Source: Ceratodon purpureus (lineage: Eukaryota; Streptophyta; Bryopsida; Pseudoditrichales; Ditrichaceae). Taken from it: DNA of 64,000 nucleotides. Under the pieces are notes generated by a model that was given only the letters and a program-made list of their open reading frames with translations, searched no databases and was not told the DNA's origin. The stretch covers positions 10,391,105-10,455,104 of the forward strand of contig CM026425.1 of the NCBI GenBank assembly GCA_014871385.1, read 5' to 3'. Of this stretch, positions 1,389 to 52,864 are shown piece after piece; the first letter of the stretch is position 1; the number at the start of each line of letters is the position of its first letter. The position numbers and the translations under genes are program-made.

Positions 1389-1459
1389 GCACCGGTGGTC
1401 TAGTGGTAGAATAGTACCCTGCCACGGTACAGACCCGGGTTCGATTCCCGGCCGGTGCA
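1389..1459 (+). tRNA. tRNA-Gly (anticodon GCC)
   Basis: The 71-nt sequence folds as a cloverleaf. The acceptor stem GCACCGG (1389-1395) pairs with CCGGTGC (1452-1458), followed by discriminator A1459. The anticodon stem GTACC/GGTAC encloses loop CTGCCAC with anticodon GCC at 1421-1423. The T arm CCGGG/CCCGG carries the internal B box GGTTCGATTCC (1438-1448), and the A box is in the D arm (TGGTCTAGTGG). A TTTT run at 1461-1464 is a fitting RNA polymerase III stop. CCA is not encoded and there is no intron, as expected for a nuclear plant tRNA-Gly(GCC). Confidence 0.97.
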
Positions 1460-3213
1460 CTTTTGGTTTTGCTGATGGTAGCTCGTGCCTAATCGTTTTT
1501 TGGTGGGCAATTAATGAGTCGAACAGACAGGAGTTCGATGGTGAAATCCGGTTCTGTTGTGGGTGTGCTGGATGGTTTTTGCGGAGACAATATTTGTTGT
1601 GTTGCGGAGATTAGGCTTTGAAACTAAACAGAGTGGCGGTTGTTTGAATTGCACAGAATTTGCTCGGTTTTTGAAAAAAAATATTTAGAAAAGTGCTCTG
1701 AAATTGGGCTGAAGAAGCTGCATGCGGAATGTCTGAGCTGTTCTGTATTAACACAACCTTCGCCCACAATATGTCAATAAATCAACGGCAAGCTTATATC
1801 AAGGAATGCAGTTGCCCACAATATGTCTGAAGAAGATTTGAGCTCTCATCTATGCTATATATCTAAAGATGCTGGGATTGTCCCTGTCTCGCTCTAGAAA
1901 CTCACGACAAATGAGGTCTTCAATTTGCTTCGTGATCAACTTGATATCAGGCTTAAGTGGATGAGAACATTGTCAAAAGGTTCCCAGGACAAACTGGTGA
2001 TGAGGCAACTGTTTTCGACTCTTCATGGATCACACAACACACGAATCAATGGTGTATTGTCTATCTTTATCCTCATTTTCTGCCACCTTCTTAGCTGCGA
2101 TGGAATCCTTATCCCTCTCATCTTGTCCGTGAGCTTGGAATTGAATTCAAAGGTGTCGCTTTGCCCAACAACCTTGGTACTTGGATAGTTGCTTAGAATC
2201 TTGTATTTTATACATGACAACGAGTGTCACAATTTGAGAATAACATCATCGATAAGGTTCACATGGTTCACGATAGCGTTGTAGCTCAGCCTATCTCCGA
2301 TATTGAAAAGCAAGAAGAATCGCACACTGCAGTAGTTTCACAATGAGGTCAATGGACTTGACATCAAAATTTCCTTTCATATGACAAGTTTGTAGGTCAA
2401 TGGCTTTTCCCATCTCCTCAAGCAAAATGAAGTTGGGAGGCTTGTAAGAGGGCCAAAACCCACTTGTAAGAGAATTCACTAACGATTCCAAGTGAAATAA
2501 TGACTACGAGAAAATCATCAAATAATTAAAACTTATCAAAACTTATCAAATTTTCTCATTATTTACATTCTGACCAGATACCCTCATTTACTTCTTTGTA
2601 GGATTTTCTTGCTCCCTTCTTAACAATCTGTTAGAGAAAGTGGCCAAAAGCTTCGCACTTGTGCTCCCTACAACACCCTTATTGAAGAAAAATTCAAATA
2701 GTTCCTTCAAATACTCGTGGAAAAGGAAAATATTCGTTCAGCAAGCATTCCTCCCCTTTTATCATGTAGCCAGAACATAAATCCACCATTATTTTATGAG
2801 TTTTCCATCTTTTCACAAGCTTCTCAACCATCAAATAGCAAGATTGATCATCGAAATTCCATGACTAATTTTAATAAAAAAGACTCAAAAAATGTTGTCT
2901 CTAAAGCAAAGTGAAAGAATTTTAAATCATAATAATAAATTACTCTTCCAAGTTTCTCCTCTGGTCCAACCAAAATCATCAAATAAAATAAAGAATACCT
3001 CATTTTTTGAGAATTCATCTCCTAAAATTCATCTGCTAATGTACTGGAGTGAGACCTGTGCAATACTCCTTCTATTTTAGGTACATAGTGACACATAGCA
3101 GTATGCAACTTTACGAAGTTGAACAAGGAATCTATATTACAATACAACTCACTTAGTCTCGCTCAACCGTTCCGTGCTGAAATTTGTTGAGGAGGCAAAC
3201 TAAGCTATAAAAA

Positions 3214-3498: not shown

Positions 3499-4309
3499 CT
3501 CATACCAACATATGATGGGTTTGTCTAGCGTCATACGGTATACGGAACACCTTTTTTTCAAAAACGAAAAGCCAGCTACTTGTCACGTTTTACTTTAAAA
3601 TGACCATAATATTTTACTCATTTATTTAAAGGGAAGAAGATAAAAAAAAAGCTAAGGAAGGCTCAATTCTAGAGAGGAGTTTGGAAGTTTTCCAGCTTGA
3701 ATCGAAATTCTTACCTTGAATCACATGCTCAGCCTATGAATCACAGACTGGGCATTTCAAGTTTTGGTGTTGTCTTTGGGTACTTTCACCATGCATATCA
3801 TAAACTTGCTCTTCAGATCACATCGCTCTGAAACTTCAGCCAGATGTAACACTCCCAGCTCCGGCTCCACACAAGGACCCATGTCCTTCCACACGTCTAC
3901 ACCATGTCGAAGCGCCGACCCCACTTGGCAGACGCACAGGTGTCCGTCTCGGATCAGGAACTAGCAACACAAAACTACTAGAATATTTATCAGATCCTGT
4001 TTCCTGGCACCGTTCCAGATGCACAGAAAAGCTTCTCACTTGCTTGTAACTAAGTGTTTCCTCCGAGGTTCAACTCTAGATGAGATCTACAGACTCCTTT
4101 TCTGCTGCCACAGTTGTACCTTACTAGATTCTTTTGCTCGCTAGAGACTTAGTCGTTGTCTAGAAACTAGGCGAGAGGGTGAAGCAGGGGGTGTTGAGAT
4201 TGTGGGAAACTGTCCCTTGGTTTAGTTCAGGGATCGACGTCGGTGACTTCTTTTGTGGAACCTTGTTACAAGCTAGTTTCTAGAAAGGTTTCAGTTTGGG
4301 AGCTCCGTC

Positions 4310-4432
4310 ATGAATGAGTTTGTGAGGCTGCTGTTTTACACGTATCTCCCACAGATTGCTGCCGTGGGATACTCAGCTCTGGCTGTCCTGATCGTCTCCC
4401 TGGTTGTCAAGTTTCTCAAGAAGGGCGCTTAG
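4310..4432 (+). CDS. Small single-helix membrane peptide, copy 1 (40 aa)
   Basis: ATG 4310 to TAG 4430 encodes 40 residues: a polar N terminus MNEFVRLLFY, a hydrophobic segment of about 20 residues (roughly 16-34) and a basic tail KFLKKGA. The layout is typical of a one-helix membrane microprotein with its basic end facing the cytosol or stroma. A purine is present at -3 of the ATG. The strongest evidence is a second ORF 139 bp downstream that starts MNEFVTLVFY: of the first 14 residues 10 are identical, and 7 of those identical codons differ only by silent third-base changes, a pattern expected under selection on the peptide. I do not recognise the family, and no function is assigned. Confidence 0.55.
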   Translation: MNEFVRLLFYTYLPQIAAVGYSALAVLIVSLVVKFLKKGA

Positions 4433-4570
4433 TCTTGAGTGATTACTGCCGTAGTTTCAGTTGGGTCTTCCTTTTAGCCTCCTCTGAGTAGTGACGGGTT
4501 GGTTTTAGTCAGTGAAGATAGCACTACTATTATTCTAACTCTCAGGTTCATCGTTCTCGCTCTTTTCACG

Positions 4571-4675
4571 ATGAACGAATTCGTGACGCTTGTATTTTAT
4601 CAGAATCTTCCGGGTTTGATTGTGCTAGGGGTTACAGTACTCACCATCGTCTTGCTAGTGTACATGTTCAAGTGA
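4571..4675 (+). CDS. Small single-helix membrane peptide, copy 2 (34 aa)
   Basis: ATG 4571 (A at -3) to TGA 4673 encodes 34 residues: MNEFVTLVFYQNLP, then a hydrophobic helix with GLIVLGVTVLTIVLLVY and a short end MFK. It shares M-N-E-F-V-x-L-x-F-Y-x-x-L-P with the upstream copy, while the codons have diverged silently (AAT/AAC, GAG/GAA, TTT/TTC, CTG/CTT, TAC/TAT, CTC/CTT, CCA/CCG). The tail is shorter than in copy 1. The two could be separate genes, two ORFs on one transcript, or upstream ORFs of an unrecognised transcript. The spacer of 138 bp (4433-4570) has no convincing promoter by eye. Confidence 0.55.
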   Translation: MNEFVTLVFYQNLPGLIVLGVTVLTIVLLVYMFK

Positions 4676-5838
4676 TTATCCCTGCAGCTGCACCAGTCGA
4701 CTTTAGGGGTTGCCTGTTTCTTCGGCTTCTCTTAACCGTCGCCAGGACGATGCACTTTGGGTGGAAGTCTAGTGCGAGCAATGGCTCAACGATGGCGTCT
4801 TTCGTCGTCCAAGAGAGTGCTCTCGATTTGAGGTAATTGTGGAGTGTGAGTCGATCCCTGCATCTGCCATAGCTCCTTACATGTTTCTTTGGAATCAACA
4901 TACACTGGTTTATTTGTGATTTTGGTTTCGTTTTCAGCAATTGCCATGCTTTTGTTGTGCTTCAGGGTGGTTCGTGGATGTCCTTGCGGAAGAGTTCGGC
5001 CAGTTTGCAAGTGAAGACGATAGTCACTCTGTTGTAGGGGTTTGGAATATCCGCAAAAAAGGCCATTCTCTTGGATACCAATTGAATTTCAGGATGCACT
5101 GCGGTGTCATGATTTTGTAAGTTTGTTTGCCTGAAACTCTTCAAAGGCTTCTTCATATTAATCTGGACTTATTGATTGATGATGTACTCTGCTTTTGTCT
5201 TGAGGATTGACCTCACGAATATGGATTTAGGGTTATTGTGAAATCAAGTGATGTTTGCCTCTATTACTATACTGTACATTTCCAATTTTAGGGACGAGAG
5301 TTTACAAAGCAAATTTATACAAAATCGCAATGACGTGTAATAGTTTTCTCCTCATAACCTTGTTACCATCACATCTAGACTTCATCGGGATTGAAACAAC
5401 TATTTTTTGCGATATCCTGTACATTTGAGTCATGACAACTTTTGATGATTGTATCTCAAAACATGGACAAGAGTAATACAGTGCTCAAACAATGTACAAT
5501 ATGCACTTCGGGATAATGGGATTTATTCAATTTCGTTGAGCTTTATAGTCCAAGCTCCGAAACTGAACCTCTTTTATCCTCATAGAGATATGCATATTCA
5601 TTAGTTAAGCTGATAATATTTTTTGAGTTCTACTTGAAGTAACACTTGATCCACACAAAATTTTGCTTTACATTTGAAGTTGTTGTATATAACACCTACA
5701 CAGAGAACCTATGTACACTCTGTTTTTTCTGCCGCAAATGACCAAATCATAATAAGCACAGTTCAAAATTGAAATGGAAACTGAAAAACGTCAAAACAAA
5801 ATTCAATATTTCGGTTGCTTTCCCACCACTCCAGTAAT
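4676..5838. other. Spacer between convergent small ORFs and the minus-strand gene
   Basis: No supported coding sequence. The right part is probably the 3' UTR of the minus-strand gene ending at 5839, with a candidate poly(A) signal at 5522-5527. Short frames around 4740-5150 have no recognisable features. Confidence 0.45.
5522..5527 (-). terminator. Candidate poly(A) signal AATAAA
   Basis: TTTATT on the plus strand reads AATAAA on the minus strand, about 310 bp past the stop of the seven-exon gene. Position and sequence fit a plant near-upstream element, but nothing else confirms its use. Confidence 0.3.
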
Positions 5839-8800
5839 TCACGCATTGCCCAAGTCCTCCCATGTCGGTGACACCGCATTTTGGGAACTCGACTCTCCTT
5901 GTGCTTGTGTATGAATCCTCTTCCATAGGGAAACCGACTCTTCTCCTAGAGCTTCAAGTTTCAACTTCTCAACTTGGGTTCGCTTCTCAAATTTCCAGAA
6001 GTCGGGGAACCTCAACTTTCCATCAGAGTTTCTCATGGGCTGTTCAGCTGATACAACTGTTTTCTCCTTCAATGAAATAGGTTCCATGTCTTCTAGAATT
6101 TTTTCCCAACGAAAATCTTGGTCATCTTGGGAACTAGACTCTCCTCGAACTGGTCCAGTACTTCTCTTCGGAGGTCCAGCAGATGCCGCTGATACTTCAT
6201 GGGGTTTTATCTGAGAAAGAAATTCATGATAACTCATTTCTCCATAAGCTTGTGCAGAGGTTCCATCGAGAGGACACGCTGATGTGGATGCTTTCTCCCA
6301 CTTTTCCTTTGACAGTGAACGAGGGCTTGGTACTGGAACGTTTGACTCTTCTGGTGCCTGTGGAGAGGTTACCATGGGTACGGAATCATCTAACATATGA
6401 TTCCCAATAAAAGTACCAGTTTCAAACCCGAAATCGTGCTGCTCTTCTATATCATCCCAAGGTGCAGTCTCTGCCCACCAATTCCGTTCATCATCATTGA
6501 GTTTCAAGGTTTTTCTCCTCTTGGGAGCCTGGGTCTTGCTATCCCTGAACGTCTGACCTGGGCTTGCTGTCTCCCTCTCATCAAACTTTTCATCGCCCTT
6601 GGGCTTGGGGACGGCCACCTTAAGCCAAGAGTTGCTCGCTTTTATCTTGTCAGCCAGCCATTTCGCAACTTTCTCAACTTTTTCTTGATAAGTTCCCCTC
6701 CATGCTACATCGCGACGTGTCATGAATTGCCTCGAATACGCTTCATAAAGGGAATCTTCACTAAAGGAATCCATCAACCAATCTTCGATCGTAGAGAGTT
6801 CCAATACCGCCGGAGGGGTTACTACCAACCACGCACCATACATGGCTTGGCAGATATTCTTCTCACAAGGAAGTGGAACAATCGAAGTAAGCAAGTCTGA
6901 CTGTGTTTGATGGTTGCATATACAACATGTCTGTTTGATGAAAACCAATTGAGCAACCACATACTGCATAAGCCCTGTTATGAGCTCGCCGTCTGGAAAT
7001 TCGTACCCACTGTCAGCTCGCTTGACATGCACCTCTTGTTTCAGGTACTGCCGCACCAGATGAGGTATGTAACATGACATGCCTGCCACTGGCGGCAAAA
7101 CTTTGGTTTTAGCCCCAGTATCCTTCCAGGTTCCCATATGACCAGAAGGCACACCTTGATGAGCAGAGACTCGAACATCTCCTTTGAGAAGACTTTCACG
7201 CACGTTGGTCGAGTCAAGGAAGATCTCCACGTGGAGAGGAGACTCACGCGAAATACCAGTTGACAACGTAGCGATGTCATCTTCCATAAAAGAGCCCACT
7301 TGAAACTTCAACTCGATTGAGCACCTGTTCACATCGATAGTAAGAATCCCTTTGTCAGTCCTTATTCACAGATTTATTAACACGTAAATAGGTAGACCAC
7401 TTGTTCAAATTCGCGCAAGTATTCAACACAAAATTAGCGTATTGTCAAATAACATCTCGTACTGTTTTCCCCAATTCTAGTGTGTGAAAAATCTTCGTTT
7501 ATGAATGTTGGACATAAAGTACCTTAACTTGTTGAATTTACATGAACACCACTGAAGTACGTTCCCCTCGGTAGCTGCGTGTAAGACATATGATCTATAT
7601 GCATGAGAAATTTCCGGATCATAGGCTGGTTCCTCTGCCAAAGTTTCAAGTCGTGCTGTCCGTGTCTTTTTCACAGATGAAGCTGTCCAGACATCCCATT
7701 CACAAAATTTAAGTTCAGATCCATATTGTATTAAACCACCATCTTGGCTTCAACTGAAATTCGCGAGCTCGAGAAAAAGCATTGCATCGAACAGAGCATT
7801 GAACTGATTTTAGACTAAGTAGCAGTAAACTACACACCAGAGGAATACCAACCAACATCCTATCCACGTCACTAGTCTGTAATATCTATAAAGAATACAC
7901 AAGGTGTGCTTTCTTAATAAGAAAGCTTTGAGATCTTAAAGGCGATAGATGCTAGAATTGTCCCCTAAGCAATACACGCTCTCGGAACTAATATCCGAGA
8001 GCTTGAGCACTTTCTTCGAAATCAAAAGAGAGTACTAGTCTAGGGCATAAGAAACAGAATAGTGAACAGCCATGCGTACCAGAAGAGAGAATGTCGTGGT
8101 CAGTCCAACCGCCTGAATTTGAAGACGACCAGCTTGCTAAGCGTTGCAAGACCTTACTTTCTCGTTCGTCTTGGACACAACTACTATGTTCCTGTTAAAT
8201 AAAATATCATGTCAGTGATTGTAAGCATATGCTAGATAGTGACTACATAGCTAGCATGGTCATAAATCAGATGCAATACCAATGCGGTTTCGCTTTCGGG
8301 AGTGCTGAATTCCTGATAATTATAAGTGGATATTTCAGACAATCATGCGACTCAAATTATACGCCTTCTTCCATTGCACCCAAAGTCCCCGTAATTTGAA
8401 CCCCGTAATTTTAATCGAACTTGGTCCCCTGGAACCTAAAATATTCTGTGACGATAACGAAACTTTACATTCACCGAGAACTTCCTTTAGAACCAGATTT
8501 TTATTTTAAAATAACCAGTTAGATTTCAGGGTTGGTACGATCACTAAAGGCACATTGGCATGAAGTTCAACAAATGACTAATGTTAACTGGCTTCATGAA
8601 ACGATTCAATAAACTAAAATTATATTCTGCAAATTTGGAGAGTAAATTACCTGGTCCGAATCGTCCCCTGAGCAGGTAGCAGAATTCATCTTCAAGCTAA
8701 AAAAATCGTTGATTAGTGGTGAGCAGTCGCGCTTTCCAAATGGATCTAAATCTCGCAGCATCACGTCCAAGCTCTCTGCATCTGAAAATTCGGCACCGAG

Positions 8801-13924: not shown

Positions 13925-14255
13925 GTCATAGAGACGCGGCATGCCAAATTGGAGGGGCCCCTGCAACGCACCGTGCCCGCCATGCCTTCCGCGGCCCCAA
14001 TCGAGGCCCGCTAAGGCTCACGCCAAGGGCTTATGGCGGGTGAGGTGGCGTGGGTGGCGTGCTTAGCTGGCCGGGGTGTGGGGCCTTGCTAGGCTGCTCC
14101 TGCGTTTTTTGAGTTCTTTCGAAACTGCCAGGGACTGTGGTCGGAGAGGAGCTGCTGCCGGCAGTGTGCTCTTTCAGCTGAGAATGCTTGCTGTTTGTGT
14201 CAATTGAGGGGAGGGTGTTTGTTGAAATTGGTTGGTTTCTTTGAGTGTGAGAGTC

Positions 14256-15578
14256 ATGGAGAATTGGGAGGAAGAGCTAGAGAGGAATCTCGGATTTGAT
14301 ATAGGGTTTGAGGAGGACATGGAGGATGAGCTTGAGAATGACCTTTTTTTACAGATGGTTGAAGGTGTGCAAAATGAGATTTTGGGGGAGTCTTCCATCA
14401 AGCCGAAGGTGGGAGGTAGCGTACCTGGAAGGGAGTATGTTTGGCGTGATAGAGAGGTATGTCACAATCTTCTTGTGGCAGATTATTTTTGTGACCAACC
14501 TACCTATCCTCCAAGGAAGTTCCGGAGACGGTTTAGAATGCGGAAGGAACTTTTCCTTACCATTCATGATGCTGTTGTGGCATTTGATCCATGGTTTACA
14601 CAGCGTTACGATGCTACCAAGCGGTTGGGTTTGTCCTCCTTGCAGAAATGCACAGTTGCCCTCCGTATGTTGGCATACGGAGTGGCAGCTGATGCATGTG
14701 ATGAGTACTGCAAGTTAGGGGAGTCTACTGCCCAAGAGTGCTTGACTCGGTTTGTGGTTGCAGTTAGAGGTTGCTTTGAGGAGATCTACTTGAGACAGCC
14801 TACACGGTATGACATAGAGAAGCAGATGGCTATCAATGAGAAGCGGGGATTTCCAGGGATGTTTGGAAGTCTAGATTGTATGCACTGGACTTGGAAGAAT
14901 TGCCCTGTAGCTTGGCAGGGTCAATTCCAAGATAAGGACAAGAATAGAAGCATTATCTTGGAGGCCGTGGCAGATCAGAGCTTATGGATATGGCATGCCT
15001 ATTTTGGCTTGCCTGGGGGGAACAACGACATCAATGTCTTGGACAGTTCTCCGTTTCTGATAAATCTCCTGCGGGGTGCTGGCCATGACATCAGCTTTGA
15101 GGTAAACGGTAATGTTTACCCTAGATACTACTTCCTGGCAGATGGCATTTATCCACCTTGGGCATGTTTTGTGCAGCCCATTCATGAGCCAGTTGGTGAG
15201 ATGAAGGAGCATTTTGCAAAATGTCAGGAAGGTGCACGGAAGGATGTGGAGCGGGCTTTTGGAGTGTTGCAGGCTAGGTGGGAGATTATCAAAAACCCCG
15301 TGCGGCAATGGGATTTAGGGGTTATTGACAACATCATGATGGCTTGCATTATTATGCACAACATGATTTTGGAGGATGAGAAGGGCCTCCACCTTGAGCC
15401 ATTTGCAGACTATGGAGGCCCTTCCCAATCCACTCCTATGCCATTCACATTTCGGGATTTACAAGATGGCACTAGACAGATTGAGAACATAGAGAGCCAC
15501 TTCGCATTGAGAAATGATTTGATAGATCATTTGTGGAAGATTAGAGGTGAGAGAAGGAGACTCAATTTAGGAAGGTGA
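14256..15578 (+). CDS. PIF/Harbinger transposase (DDE_Tnp_4), 440 aa
   Basis: ATG 14256 (MENWEEELERN) to TGA at 15578. The frame opens upstream without an ATG, so this is the first usable start. The N terminus is acidic, followed by a helical DNA-binding region (KFRRRFRMRKELFLTI). The catalytic RNase-H-like domain has the expected triad: D207 in GSLDCMHW, D296 in FLADGIYP and E332 in KDVERAFGVLQARW, a 35-residue D-E spacing. These are hallmarks of HARBI1-like plant transposases, which cut at the element ends and insert at TWA sites with help from the Myb-like partner. No frameshift or stop interrupts it. Its stop lies 11 bp from the stop of the opposing partner gene. Confidence 0.95.
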   Translation: MENWEEELERNLGFDIGFEEDMEDELENDLFLQMVEGVQNEILGESSIKPKVGGSVPGREYVWRDREVCHNLLVADYFCDQPTYPPRKFRRRFRMRKELFLTIHDAVVAFDPWFTQRYDATKRLGLSSLQKCTVALRMLAYGVAADACDEYCKLGESTAQECLTRFVVAVRGCFEEIYLRQPTRYDIEKQMAINEKRGFPGMFGSLDCMHWTWKNCPVAWQGQFQDKDKNRSIILEAVADQSLWIWHAYFGLPGGNNDINVLDSSPFLINLLRGAGHDISFEVNGNVYPRYYFLADGIYPPWACFVQPIHEPVGEMKEHFAKCQEGARKDVERAFGVLQARWEIIKNPVRQWDLGVIDNIMMACIIMHNMILEDEKGLHLEPFADYGGPSQSTPMPFTFRDLQDGTRQIENIESHFALRNDLIDHLWKIRGERRRLNLGR

Positions 15579-29821: not shown

Positions 29822-31423
29822 ATGGGTTTCGTGGGGTTGCAAGCTGGGGTGCAGCTCGCTACTGTCGCTGCTCTGAGTTTGGCTATGGTGGGCATGGTCT
29901 ACTCTGCCACTTTTACTGAGCAGTTTACTGCTTTCTCCCATGATGGTATCCATGTTCAAGTCGCGCCTGATGGCCAGGAGGCCAAGATTGTGCTGGACGA
30001 ATACGCTGGTATGAAATGACTTTGTTTCTCATATGTTGCTCTAACAGGAGTTTGAAGTAAATGCGGGTCATTCATGTGCAAGCAATGCTGGGGCCATGTT
30101 TGAGAGTTCGTCTTCTTTTCTTCTGAGTGCATCCATTGCCAGGGCCTAAGTTAAAGCTTGGTGCTACCGAAATGTGTTGGAAGTCTATCTTGTAAGAATG
30201 CATTTCTGGATTTCTTTTCGTTTTACTCAAACTGAATCACCGAGTGGTTTGGCCAGCTTCTGGATTTGGATCCAAGAATCAGTATCTGTTTGGGAACATC
30301 ACAATGATGATCAAGCTTGTGCCGGGTGATTCGGCTGGGACCGTCACTGCGTATTATGTAAGCATCTTTCCTCCGTGAACGACTTCCACTCTTCTCGCTC
30401 TTGGTTGGGCTTGCACTTCTCAGAAAATGATAAAGATCTGTGAGTGTCCTGCGTGGGGCGTCGTTAGAAGCCATTATTGATCAACCTCTTTGTGACATTG
30501 CGAGGATAATGATGTTGTGCCTGACGCGTTTTAGGTTTGTAATATATACAATGCAAGATGTATTGTGCATATGAAGTTTAAGTTTCTGACATGGTTTTCT
30601 TGGACGCTATCAGTTGTCATCGGCCCAACCCAACCACGATGAGCTGGACTTCGAGTTTCTAGGCAACACATCTGGCCAGCCCTACATCCTGCAAACCAAT
30701 GTGTTTGCCAACGGCATCGGCCGCAGGGAGCAACGGATCAACCTCTGGTTCGACCCGACTACAGATTTCCACAACTACGGCGTTCTGTGGAACAGGAATC
30801 AGATCATGTACGTGGTCCATCACCCATTCTGCAATTTCATGTTCCAGTAACTTGGTCGCGTTCACTCAGTTGTTTACTGTCATGACATTGAACCTGTGCC
30901 TCAAACCAAGTGTCTACTGACATCGTTTGTGATCCAAGACAAGGGTTAACCCATATTTTGCAAGATGCCTCCTAACATTTTTTACGAACATGCTGTTGTC
31001 ATTGCGTGGTGCAGTTTCACAGTCGACAACAAGCCAATCCGCGTGTTCAAGAACAATGAGGATCTTGGCATAGCATACCCCAAGAATAAGCCCATGGGAC
31101 TCTACGCCAGCTTGTGGAATGGCGATAGCTGGGCTACACAAGGAGGTATGGTGAAGACCAACTGGACTCACGCGCCATTCATCGTTTCATTCAAGGATTT
31201 CACCACGTTGGATGGGTGCGTGGTGGCTAACAACGACATCTCTCCATGCACCGCAACCACCACTCACTGGTGGGAAGCCTCTGCTTATCAAACCATTGAC
31301 CGCAAGCAGGCCGAGCAAATTCTGTGGGTGAAGAATAATTATGAAGTATACGACTACTGTACAGACAGAAAGAGATTCCCAGTCGCTCCACTCGAATGCG
31401 AGCGAAACATACCCTTGTTGTAA
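29822..31423 (+). CDS. Xyloglucan endotransglucosylase/hydrolase (XTH gene A), 296 aa
   Basis: Four exons: 29822-30008, 30257-30357, 30614-30807, 31015-31423; all introns GT-AG, phases 1, 0, 2, total 891 nt. A signal peptide is visible ([20 protein letters not shown]). The GH16 catalytic motif is [11 protein letters not shown], with nucleophile E106, D108 and acid/base E110, followed by the conserved N-glycosylation site N-T-S. The C-terminal XET_C domain has paired cysteines (GCVV...SPC; YDYC...LEC). The enzyme is secreted and cuts and rejoins xyloglucan chains in the cell wall, or hydrolyses them; which activity dominates cannot be read here. Length is typical of the family. A poly(A) signal follows at 31708. 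Confidence 0.95.
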
Positions 31424-33642: not shown

Positions 33643-34518
33643 TCAACGCGTGAAACCATTAAAACGAACAGTCCCGTTCTGTAAAGGAGGTTGGTTGGAG
33701 CGGCGTCTAAGCTCAAACTTGTACACTTTATACCCAGAAGCCCCCATTTCCGTTGTAGCATTGTACACATCATAAAGCCCATCGTAGGAATATATTTTAT
33801 TCCACCCCTTCGTTGTTTCCACGTCGTGCCCCCGGTTCACACGAACAGGAATCCTCAACTGAAAGCTACGAACCAGTGCCTCATTTGCTATACTCCGCGT
33901 TTGATCCTCTTGCTGCCGTTTTTCGCCTCTGTAATCATTCCCTCCCTGTCCAGAGTAATGAAGTACCTCTCCATAATCCCTGTCATCCTCGTAACCACCC
34001 GAAGCCACTACACTTGTGGCAATCTTATCGGCACCATAATCCACATAGACAATCCCAGCTTGCGTCTGCCGATGCAATCCCACCACATACATCTCACTCC
34101 TGTAGTCAAATCTGTCCCCCACTATCACACCTGGTACATCACCACTCTCTTCGAACTTGAACGAAAGCCCTTCATCGTTCATTTGCTTCATCGCCTTCAA
34201 ATCCGGTCTTGCGATATTTTCGCCCCTTGCCTTCAGTCTCTCATAATGCTCCCGAAGTACCTTGTATATCCGCCGCCTTTCAAAGAACTGCTCTCTTGCA
34301 TCCCAGCTGCTGAAACCTGCTGGTAGCACCACACGTAAACGCTCGATCACGACTAAATCCACCTCCGCACTTCCACCCCGTGAAGCTCCCCCCCGAGAGA
34401 TCGAGTTTCTTCGGGGTGCAGGAACGCATCCTGGGGGATAATCTCGCACACCAATTGGACCCAAGTCGTCGTTCTCCATGGCGGAAATCTGTAGTACACT
34501 GAGGACCCCATTATTCAT
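33643..34518 (-). CDS. SRA-YDG domain protein (SUVH-type), no SET or RING domain seen
   Basis: The frame from ATG 34518 to TGA 33643 encodes 291 residues; a second ATG at 34479 (GCCATGG, stronger context) would give 278. Residues ~85-125 are helical and basic, as in SUVH proteins ahead of the SRA fold. The SRA-YDG domain begins VPGVIVGDRFDYRSE, continues GLHRQTQAGIVYVDY, then VASGGYEDD and GEVLHYSGQGG, and ends with the NKIYSYDGLYDVYNATTE block. SRA domains bind methylated or hemimethylated cytosine by base flipping. In SUVH H3K9 methyltransferases pre-SET/SET follow, and in UHRF/ORTHRUS there is RING; here the protein stops 27 residues after the YDG block. It is probably a nuclear methyl-DNA reader. 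Upstream coding exons are possible (next entry). Confidence 0.88.
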   Translation of the reverse strand: MNNGVLSVLQISAMENDDLGPIGVRDYPPGCVPAPRRNSISRGGASRGGSAEVDLVVIERLRVVLPAGFSSWDAREQFFERRRIYKVLREHYERLKARGENIARPDLKAMKQMNDEGLSFKFEESGDVPGVIVGDRFDYRSEMYVVGLHRQTQAGIVYVDYGADKIATSVVASGGYEDDRDYGEVLHYSGQGGNDYRGEKRQQEDQTRSIANEALVRSFQLRIPVRVNRGHDVETTKGWNKIYSYDGLYDVYNATTEMGASGYKVYKFELRRRSNQPPLQNGTVRFNGFTR

Positions 34519-34781
34519 AACTGAGACAACTTCAGTCTACACTGTAAGTCCACTCACAGCTAATAGAATTCAGAAAAAAGAGAATTTAACTACAGTAAAG
34601 AACAAGTGAACGAAAACTAGTTTAAGTTGTAGGATGAACAACACAAATTAGTTTAGGAAAGAAATGACGAAAGGGAAAGAGTTTGACATTGATGACATTG
34701 CAAAAGACTAAAAACACTCAAGTATAAAACCTCAACCCAAGAGATAGTACCAAACGTGCGAACGGGTTCGTACACACAAAC

Positions 34782-46112: not shown

Positions 46113-47687
46113 CTACAGAGGATTTCGGGCACATTCTGGTGGAGCAGTTGGAGTTCGATTTCGGTCTGCACAGTAGTCGTAGAGGAGGTAGTTCTTCCGC
46201 ACCCATTCTAGTTCATTGACTTGATGAGCACCTAGAGTTTGGTACTCGGATTGTGTCCACCAGCTGTTAGTCTGGGCAATGCAACTGCTTGTGTCTCCGT
46301 TCTGGACAAGACAAGCATCGACGCCGAACGATTCGTAAGAAGCGTTGAAAGGAGCATATGTCCAGTTGAGCTTCACCCAGCCGTTGTTTGTAGCCCAGTT
46401 GTCTCCGTTCCAGATTGAGCTGTAGATCCCCACTGGCCTGGAGTCTGGGAAAGCAACACCGATGTCCTTGTTGTTTTTGTAAACACGGATGGGTGTGTTG
46501 TCCACATAGAATCTACAAAAGAAGTGATATGAGTGTGAGATGGTCTGGAGAATATTGGCAACTGTCACCCTGAACCTGCGGAGGTCATCGATTGTATGAT
46601 TTCAACGGGATTTTGCACAACAATGACAGTTACTGGAAAAATGCTGCGAAATTATTCGAAGAGAACAATGGATGCTCTTCTCGAGTCCAAGTCAAGATCA
46701 ATTTTAACATGGAATATATTGAGAACTCACATGATCTGTTGCTTGTTCCACAAGACAGAGTACGAATGAAAATCTGCCGTAGGGTCAAACCAAAGGTATA
46801 TGCGCTGCTCCCTGCTACCTTGCCCACTCGCAAAGACGTTGGTTTGCAGGATGTAGGGCTGCCCTGACACATTTCCGAGGAACTCAAAATCCATTTCATC
46901 GTGATCTCCCGGTGTCTGCGATGACATCTGCAATTAAGATTCAGCAATATATGTCAGTTGAACGCTGAAGGTTGAAAAGATAACATGCCATGATGACACT
47001 AGAGAATATTCGTGTATTGCATACTAAAAAGTGAAAGATGTAGATTAAATGTATGGGATGAAGTTGTGGTGTTACATAATATGCTGTCACAGTGCCAGCA
47101 GAGTTTCCAGGAACTAGTTTCATGCGCATCCCAATATGGCCAAAAAGGTACTGATACTTGGAGCCAAACCCAGATGCTGCACAAGCAAAGATATTAGCCA
47201 GCCTGAGATATTGATAGGCGGATTAAAACTCCTGGTCATATACTACAAAAGAGTTGCAAACAAGAGCTAGAGCATCTTCATAAACTTTTCACTTTGCCTT
47301 CAATAACTCTCAGCAGCCTCCTTAAAACCAATGAATGTGTCGACTGGATGCACATTGCCGCAAGAAGATACAAAATGCTGCTATGTGTGCAAGGTCAGGA
47401 TTACAAGTTTCATCATGAGAGCTAGCAAGGTAAGGGGGCATTCTGAATGGATTACCTGCATACTCATCTAGCACCAGCTGCACTTGTTGGCCATCGTTAA
47501 GTAACCGAAAGTGCTGAGCATCCGACTGGCTAACATAATTTTCCAGAAAATTCACGGGGCCAGTTTGAGACCCATTGCCTTGGCCAAGCACAGGTCTCAC
47601 ATTCAGAGCAAGTGTGGAAATCAAACACGCCATATAAAGCCTCCACCATTTTGCGGCACCTTCAACTTCGACATCGGTTGCCGCCAT
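46113..47687 (-). CDS. Xyloglucan endotransglucosylase/hydrolase (XTH gene B), 309 aa
   Basis: Four exons (minus): 47687-47456, 47176-47076, 46927-46731, 46512-46113; introns GT-AG in phases 1, 0, 2, total 930 nt, the same architecture as XTH gene A. The signal anchor is [19 protein letters not shown] after a longer N terminus ([15 protein letters not shown]). The GH16 motif is [11 protein letters not shown] (E122, D124, E126) with N-glycosylation site N-V-S. The XET_C cysteines are present (DACLV...SSC; YDYCADR...PEC). It is a secreted wall enzyme acting on xyloglucan. Closer to gene A than to gene C in sequence and intron pattern. A methionine opens exon 3 but is internal. Confidence 0.95.
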
Positions 47688-51742: not shown

Positions 51743-52864
51743 TCACATGGTGTTGAAGGCGCATTCGGGAGGAGGAGTTGGGTACCGCGGCCTGTCGTCG
51801 CAGTAGTTGTACTTCACCTGGGTAGCCTTCACTACGCGCATCTGGCGAATGCGGCCGATGTTGAGCTTCTGTGCCCTGGGACCCGGCGCGGCGAACTTAC
51901 TGTTCTGGCAATTGGCGATGCTGGCGGCGTCGTTGGCGTTCGCGACACAGCCATTAAGGCGGAATTTCTGATACGAGGCGACGAACGGTGAGGCGGCCCA
52001 GTCGATTTTCACCCTGCCTCCCTGTGTAGCCCAACTGCTGCCGTCCCAGATGCTAAGGTAGATGTTCATAGGCTTGACGTTCGGGTACATGAATCCAGGG
52101 ATGATGCCCTCCAGGTTGCGGAACATGCGGATGGGCGTGTTGTCGACGTAGAACACTAGCAGGTCCTTGTTCCACTGGAAGTTGTAGTAGTGGTACGCCG
52201 CCGTGGGGTCGAATGGGAGGTAGATCTGCTGCTCGCGCCCGCCCGTCCCGTTCACGAAGATGTTCGTGTGGAGCAGAAACGGCTTCCCGGTTTCGTTTCC
52301 GAGGAACTCGAAGTCGAATTCGCAGTGGTAGGGGTTGGGTGATGACATCTGTGGCACAAGTAGGATGTTCAGTGCAAGTCAGGCACAAAATCCAAGCAAT
52401 GACGGACATCAAGATTGACAGAAAGATGTGATATGAATTTCGAACTTACGTAGAACGTTGTGACAGTGCCGGCGGAGTTGTTAGCCGGCAGCTTAATCCA
52501 TGCGCCAAATCCACCGAAGAGATAACTGGTCTTCGATCCAATTCCTGCAGCTGTGGTCACAAATATAAACTTAATTTAGGACATTGCGGTGCTGAAACAT
52601 ATCCCACAGCTTCAAAGCTTATCACGAATGTACGTCACTGATTAAACTTGGAAATACGAATTTGATCAAGGTGTGGAACTTACCAGATAGTCTATCAAGG
52701 ACGAGGTCCACTCCTCTGCCATCAGGCGTGTACTTCACATTCTTCATACTCCAGGAATTGAATTGAGTTTGAATTCCTCTGAGTCTCTGGGCGTTAGAGT
52801 CAACTACTAAGCAGCTCAAGCACAACAGCAACGCAATTACGGTGGTTCTCGACGAGGTCCCCAT
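51743..52864 (-). CDS. Divergent xyloglucan endotransglucosylase/hydrolase (XTH gene C), 293 aa
   Basis: Three exons (minus): 52864-52684, 52544-52450, 52348-51743; introns GT-AG in phases 1 and 0, total 882 nt. The start ATG 52864 gives a good signal peptide (TVIALLLCLSCLVVDSNA); an upstream non-ATG extension was rejected. The third intron found in genes A and B is absent. The active-site motif reads HCEFDFEFLGN: the E-x-D-x-E catalytic residues (E102, D104, E106) are kept, but the usual Asp after His is Cys101. The N-glycosylation site N-E-T follows. The XET_C end has YNYCDDRPRYP...PEC. The coding region is markedly GC-rich. It is likely a secreted wall enzyme of a separate XTH clade. Confidence 0.93.

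Follow-up and report, generated by a model that had tools for sequence, protein, structure and literature searches.

A tandem pair of related single-helix microprotein ORFs in Ceratodon purpureus, a candidate bicistronic gene

Introduction

Sloth1 and Sloth2 of Drosophila are described as bicistronic, paralogous single-TM peptides with 27% similarity, and joint action in complex III assembly is proposed for them (PMC9681215). The same report names pri/tal and sarcolamban as further such cases and finds two mutually homologous ORFs in 44 of the 196 annotated Drosophila bicistronic genes (PMC9681215). Bicistronic genes of two green algae show AUG depletion before the second ORF and a stronger start at that ORF, features that fit leaky scanning (PMC11892635). 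In Arabidopsis, readthrough bicistronic mRNAs come from 271 loci, are targets of nonsense-mediated decay (NMD), and have second ORFs that are rarely translated (PMC9768141).

Here we examine two short ORFs, ORF1 and ORF2, in a 64,000-nt stretch of Ceratodon purpureus DNA, referred to throughout as the window. The locus resembles Sloth1/Sloth2 (human SMIM4 and C12orf73) in its tandem related short ORFs with one predicted TM helix each, the transcript being bicistronic there and presumed so here. Relatedness is given as 27% similarity for the Sloth pair and amounts to 38% identity for ORF1 and ORF2. The two loci differ in size and setting: Sloth1 and Sloth2 are animal proteins of 79 and 61 aa whose ORFs lie 5 nt apart, whereas ORF1 and ORF2 encode 40 and 34 aa with a 138-nt spacer. 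A role in complex III has been demonstrated for Sloth1/Sloth2. If translated, the two products would, by analogy, work like a Sloth1/Sloth2-type pair.

The low number of AUGs ahead of the second ORF in the green-algal genes has a possible parallel at this locus; the base at -3 is A at ORF2 and G at ORF1 here, and each of these two likenesses is weak alone. Transcripts and translation are demonstrated in the algae, whereas the transcript, translation and function of ORF1 and ORF2 are inferred from the DNA; kinship between paired ORFs goes unmentioned in the relevant passages of the algal report. The Arabidopsis transcripts are alike in placing two ORFs on one nuclear land-plant mRNA, an arrangement presumed for ORF1 and ORF2. 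They differ in arising between genes and in being degraded by NMD, and their abstract does not state whether the joined ORFs are related.

The ORF pair and its genomic setting

A first-pass annotation of this DNA reported two ORFs of 40 and 34 codons, 138 bp apart, sharing the signature M-N-E-F-V-x-L-x-F-Y-x-x-L-P. Positions, lengths and spacer are confirmed (Table 1), and the signature is present in both ORFs. Both lie on the + strand, and the spacer occupies 4433-4570.

Table 1. Coordinates of the features at the microprotein locus (positions within the window)
Feature	Span	Strand	Description and basis
Presumed 5' leader	4084..4309	+	ATG-free; 1,808 of 5,000 shuffles likewise
ORF1	4310..4432	+	40 aa microprotein, stop included in span; in-frame stop at 4274, 36 nt upstream
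ORF1 N-terminal signature, residues 1-14	4310..4351	+	Alignment with ORF2; pN/pS 0.18 over codons 2-14
Out-of-frame mini-ORF overlapping ORF1 start	4314..4325	+	ATG, two codons, stop; ATG list and sequence reading
ATG-free span, rest of ORF1 and spacer	4316..4570	+	255 nt, no ATG in any frame
ORF1 hydrophobic segment, about residues 15-33	4352..4408	+	Hydropathy; predicted helix 3-39, mean pLDDT 89.3
K-K-G-A C-terminus of ORF1	4418..4429	+	Direct sequence reading; lacking in ORF2
ORF2	4571..4675	+	34 aa microprotein, stop included in span; in-frame stop at 4475, 96 nt upstream
ORF2 N-terminal signature, residues 1-14	4571..4612	+	Alignment with ORF1; pN/pS 0.18 over codons 2-14
ORF2 hydrophobic segment, about residues 15-33	4613..4669	+	Hydropathy; predicted helix 2-33, mean pLDDT 95.2
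Likely intron 3' of ORF2	4833..4965	+	Donor GAG/GTAATT; first exon base 4966, or 4938

The resemblance between ORF1 and ORF2 exceeds chance. The two align without gaps over 34 codons and are identical at 13 of them, 10 within residues 1-14. Among 226,125 pairs drawn from the window's 674 ATG ORFs with lengths of 25-100 aa (overlapping same-strand pairs excluded, overlapping opposite-strand pairs included), their N-anchored BLOSUM62 score of 65 ranks third, and they rank first of the 1,734 same-strand pairs whose starts are separated by under 600 nt. The two pairs that outrank them lie on opposite strands (56017/57345, score 132; 48246/48265, score 88) and are perhaps inverted repeats or palindromic elements. 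None of 200,000 shuffles of ORF2 reaches 65, the highest scoring 53. By tblastn inside the window each ORF recovers the other at E about 1e-5, and no clear third copy appears there (next matches E 0.82 and 0.83).

By its protein matches the window appears to be land-plant nuclear DNA. To the left of the pair, the closest long or recognised coding stretch is Prp17, on the same strand; to the right it is a 508-codon open frame on the opposite strand. The Prp17 match covers positions 19-219 and falls at the C-terminal end of this splicing factor (residues 512-576 of 576 in the best PDB chain, 8xi2_W; E 3.2e-30). The 508-codon frame (5842-7365, -), which faces the pair, is without a Pfam match at E up to 0.01 and is probably a plant gene.

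Farther along the window, matches to the xyloglucan endotransglycosylase C-terminal and GH16 models occur at 30950-31420 (+), 46116-46601 (-) and 51746-52378 (-); these three XTH-type ORFs, on both strands within about 22 kb, are an XTH cluster. The plant transposon model PF04827 finds an uninterrupted 450-codon frame at 14226-15575 (+) (E 2e-87), which is possibly a recent PIF/Harbinger-like element. A single ORF with a SAD/SRA domain (PF02182, E 6.3e-44) lies at 33646-34536 (-), and a tRNA-Gly (GCC) gene at 1389-1460 (+) is the window's sole Rfam hit to reach the gathering score.

Searches for relatives

Searches of Pfam, NCBIfam and PDB sequences (E up to 10) and of viral, prokaryote, plasmid and phage (ORF1 only) collections, none of them a plant collection, returned no relative of ORF1 or ORF2, in keeping with the first-pass annotation, which knew of no family with this signature. 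Two low-scoring matches were taken as composition, probably hydrophobic in the first case: PF05356 (Inovirus coat protein B) against the helix of ORF1, at E 0.034 and 14.6 bits, below its cut-off of 23.5, and a PDB chain of a TNF-receptor peptide matched by the two-row profile in the helix part only, at E 0.34. Pattern scans with the two-row alignment gave 51 candidates in IMG/VR and 73 in GTDB contigs, and none was confirmed in either. With tblastn at E up to 10, ORF1 has no match in plasmids or phages and ORF2 none in plasmids. A bacterial, viral or mobile origin was rejected on the IMG/VR, GTDB, plasmid and phage (ORF1 only) searches.

Membership of the Sloth/SMIM4 or C12orf73 family is not indicated by any Pfam match at E up to 10, a search whose filters drop most weak matches and whose coverage of these families is unconfirmed. 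Existing annotations may already list the two peptides as small hypothetical transmembrane proteins. In open-access text, neither any of four peptide words nor a moss counterpart was found, and the main text of a Marchantia peptide paper contains neither 'transmembrane' nor 'tandem'.

Constraint on the peptides

The similarity between ORF1 and ORF2 ends at the ORF boundaries. Over the 102-nt CDS the two score 20 against a shuffled mean of 8.6, and 0 of 300 shuffles reach 20; the flanks (137 nt upstream, 138 nt downstream) are at background, with 177 and 151 of 300 shuffles reaching their scores. A DNA duplication kept for DNA reasons was rejected, since the flanks score like shuffles and the CDS above them.

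Within the frames, nine of the 13 identical positions use silently different codons and four the same codon. For the signature this matches the earlier count of seven silently different codons among 10 identical residues, the other three (M, V and F) having the same codon. The first-pass annotation took such differences as a sign of protein-level constraint, a claim that is supported for residues 1-14 and has weak backing in the helix. The pN/pS is 0.18 for codons 2-14, where silent differences amount to 0.91 per silent site, and 0.89 for codons 15-34; both ratios rest on two sequences only, with silent sites saturated. Codon positions 1, 2 and 3 are identical at 10/13, 11/13 and 5/13 of codons 2-14, and when 13 random nucleotide changes are introduced there, at least 9 residues stay identical in 544 of 200,000 simulations. 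The second codon position sets hydrophobicity. In the helix it is kept at 13/20 codons, against 5/20 at positions 1 and 3, which suggests that hydrophobicity, not sequence, has been held in this part.

Codon usage was scored with a rough table built from ten long ORFs of the window, of which five lack a Pfam match. ORF1 scores 0.213 per codon in frame, against -0.068 and -0.001 in the other frames, a level that 18 of 392 short ORFs also attain. ORF2 scores 0.110 in frame, against -0.088 and -0.074, a value reached by 56 of 392 short ORFs and hence unremarkable.

Similarity confined to the frames, saturated silent sites and a retained N-terminal peptide together argue for an old tandem duplication in which the encoded protein was long preserved. 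Since the comparison involves two sequences with saturated silent sites, it shows long constraint in the past, not present function. ORF1 and ORF2 are very probably a genuine old tandem microprotein pair that is or was protein-coding. A decayed relic, in which constraint on the old tandem duplicate ended recently and neither copy is now translated, would account for helix parts diverging at a nearly neutral pN/pS and for the ordinary codon usage of ORF2. It is nonetheless very unlikely: both frames are open, their starts are retained despite saturated silent sites, and the N-terminal ratio is low.

Transcript and translation

ORF1 and ORF2 probably share one mRNA, and separate promoters within the 138-nt spacer would be unlikely. 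GC content per 100 nt is 0.38-0.54 across 3800-5099 and 0.28-0.37 across 5100-5799, a profile that puts both ORFs in one block of gene-like composition.

From 4084 to 4570 the only + strand ATGs are the ORF1 start and that at 4314; 3.2-3.5% of 485-nt windows hold at most two. Between 4316 and 4570 there are 0 ATGs against 3.7 expected from base content, and 456 of 5,000 dinucleotide shuffles are likewise empty. Among 253-nt windows, about 2.5% lack an ATG, or 2.9-3.5% at matched GC. The scarcity inside ORF1 is itself unremarkable, random synonymous codings averaging 0.50 extra ATG and 0 of 20,000 exceeding the one observed. The empty stretch is weakly consistent with ribosomes scanning through to ORF2. 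At the starts, -3 is G in ORF1 and A in ORF2 and +4 is A in both; with a purine at -3 and A at +4 in each, ORF1 is not clearly a poor start.

The presumed leader contains a perfect 12-nt inverted repeat (4159-4170 / 4273-4284) that ends 25 nt before the ORF1 start and might act as an RNA stem or as a paired element of a promoter. A structured leader was considered and rejected: the repeat forms a stem, yet the RNA fold of 4140-4320 is ordinary (z -0.57; 58 of 200 shuffles as good).

Splice sites were scored with hand-entered plant matrices. On this scale the donor at 4833 is in the top 0.014% of + strand window positions, and its two acceptors are in the top 0.017% and 0.11%. The likely intron begins 157 nt past the ORF2 stop, and either lies within the 3' UTR or is followed by further exons. 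By the usual plant rule, an intron that far past a stop tends to invite nonsense-mediated decay, so that an mRNA carrying this one in its 3' UTR would tend toward that fate. A splice extension of ORF2 from a donor-like site at 4672, which would drop the stop and yield 66 or 49 aa, was set aside, the donor being weak (top 0.35%).

The strong donor at 4833 suggests a spliced downstream part, as would be expected if ORF1 and ORF2 were conserved-peptide uORFs that regulate translation of a longer main ORF on the same mRNA. Plant uORFs of this kind are comparable in length and in peptide-level conservation, and 34 and 40 aa fall inside their range of 17-62 (PMC2075485). Such uORFs precede a main ORF, however, and none was found 3' of ORF2 under six splice pairs tried within 4000-5800, where the longest junction-crossing ATG ORF starting past ORF2 has 60 aa. 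Five ORFs at 4668-5156 (two +, three -) were compared with Pfam and 0 of 5 pass a cut-off: the two on the + strand have no match at E up to 5, and the best match, with E 0.029 and 14.9 bits where the cut-off is 29.4, pairs DUF220 with one of the - strand ORFs. The opposite-strand 508-codon ORF, running from 7365 to 5842, leaves scant room for a main ORF, and a uORF role appears quite unlikely.

Splice-like sites also bear on whether the two ORFs are translated together. Alternative starts or splicing could put either ORF1 or ORF2 first, making the products isoforms that are not co-translated. An acceptor-like site at 4546 (top 0.20%), which would start an exon 25 nt ahead of ORF2, and a donor-like site at 4288 (top 0.76%), 22 nt ahead of ORF1, would permit this, but both are weak and were scored with the same hand-entered matrices. 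We regard such alternative products as fairly unlikely.

Predicted products and their membrane location

The earlier observation of one hydrophobic helix per ORF is borne out by a single Kyte-Doolittle stretch and a single predicted helix in each. The 19-residue maxima are 2.20 for ORF1 and 2.64 for ORF2, and structure was predicted from the two-row alignment for ORF1 and from the single sequence for ORF2. A single helix is a common prediction for isolated hydrophobic peptides and says little about function.

Charged residues flank the hydrophobic core: in ORF1, E3 and R6 precede it and K34, K37 and K38 follow, and in ORF2, E3 precedes it and K34 marks its end. The positive-inside rule would place the C-terminus of both predicted products in the cytosol. 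The K-K-G-A end of ORF1 we take to match the KKXX dilysine ER-retrieval pattern. Both products would thus be single-pass membrane proteins with a cytosolic C-terminus, that of ORF1 probably residing in the ER.

A different location, compatible with the other readings of the locus and touching only the membrane question, is a tail-anchored pair in the outer mitochondrial membrane (OMM) with the N-terminus in the cytosol. The hydrophobic segments end 7 (ORF1) and 1 (ORF2) residues short of the C-terminus, with basic residues following, as this location would have it. In plants, the dibasic signal of mitochondrial tail anchors is R-(R/K/H)-X, where X is not E (PMC4154396). This C-terminal motif of the dibasic plant OMM class is absent from both ORFs, ORF1 ending in K-K-G-A, which has no arginine, and ORF2 in M-F-K. 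An outer mitochondrial location is rather unlikely, and the ER reading of ORF1 is preferred.

A proposed bicistronic gene and its significance

The explanation we favour, at roughly even confidence, is a small protein-coding gene in which a single microprotein ORF was duplicated in tandem, most likely expressed as one bicistronic mRNA, with products acting together in a membrane complex. Both copies would have been retained in one gene, with a single transcript spanning about 4084-5100. ORF1 would be translated first, and ribosomes that bypass its start, or restart after the 4314 mini-ORF, would get to ORF2 because no ATG stands in between. The products, as paralogs, may be accessory or assembly subunits that a single membrane complex receives in fixed proportion, with the common N-terminal part serving as a shared contact and the divergent helices giving each product a separate role. 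Against this bicistronic reading stand the 456 of 5,000 shuffles that are also free of ATG, the synonymous codings of ORF1 that are as poor in ATG, an ORF1 start that is not clearly poor, the likely intron after ORF2, the rare translation of second ORFs in Arabidopsis readthrough mRNAs (PMC9768141), the helix pN/pS of 0.89 and the ordinary codon usage of ORF2.

A broader proposal is more tentative: that ORF1 and ORF2 belong to a hitherto undescribed land-plant family of 34-40 aa single-helix proteins, paralogs co-translated by leaky scanning from one nuclear mRNA as an obligate membrane-complex pair, and hence an independent counterpart of the animal Sloth and sarcolamban loci.

Bicistronic genes in green algae and readthrough bicistronic mRNAs in Arabidopsis have already been described, as far as the sources cited above report them. 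No land-plant example of two related microproteins encoded in tandem was found in the open-access literature, among the matches listed. If both ORFs are translated from one mRNA, the locus would be a bicistronic nuclear gene of a land plant that encodes two related microproteins, as has been described in animals. It would then offer a small, testable case of leaky-scanning paired expression in plants, and a gene of a kind that ordinary gene callers may overlook.
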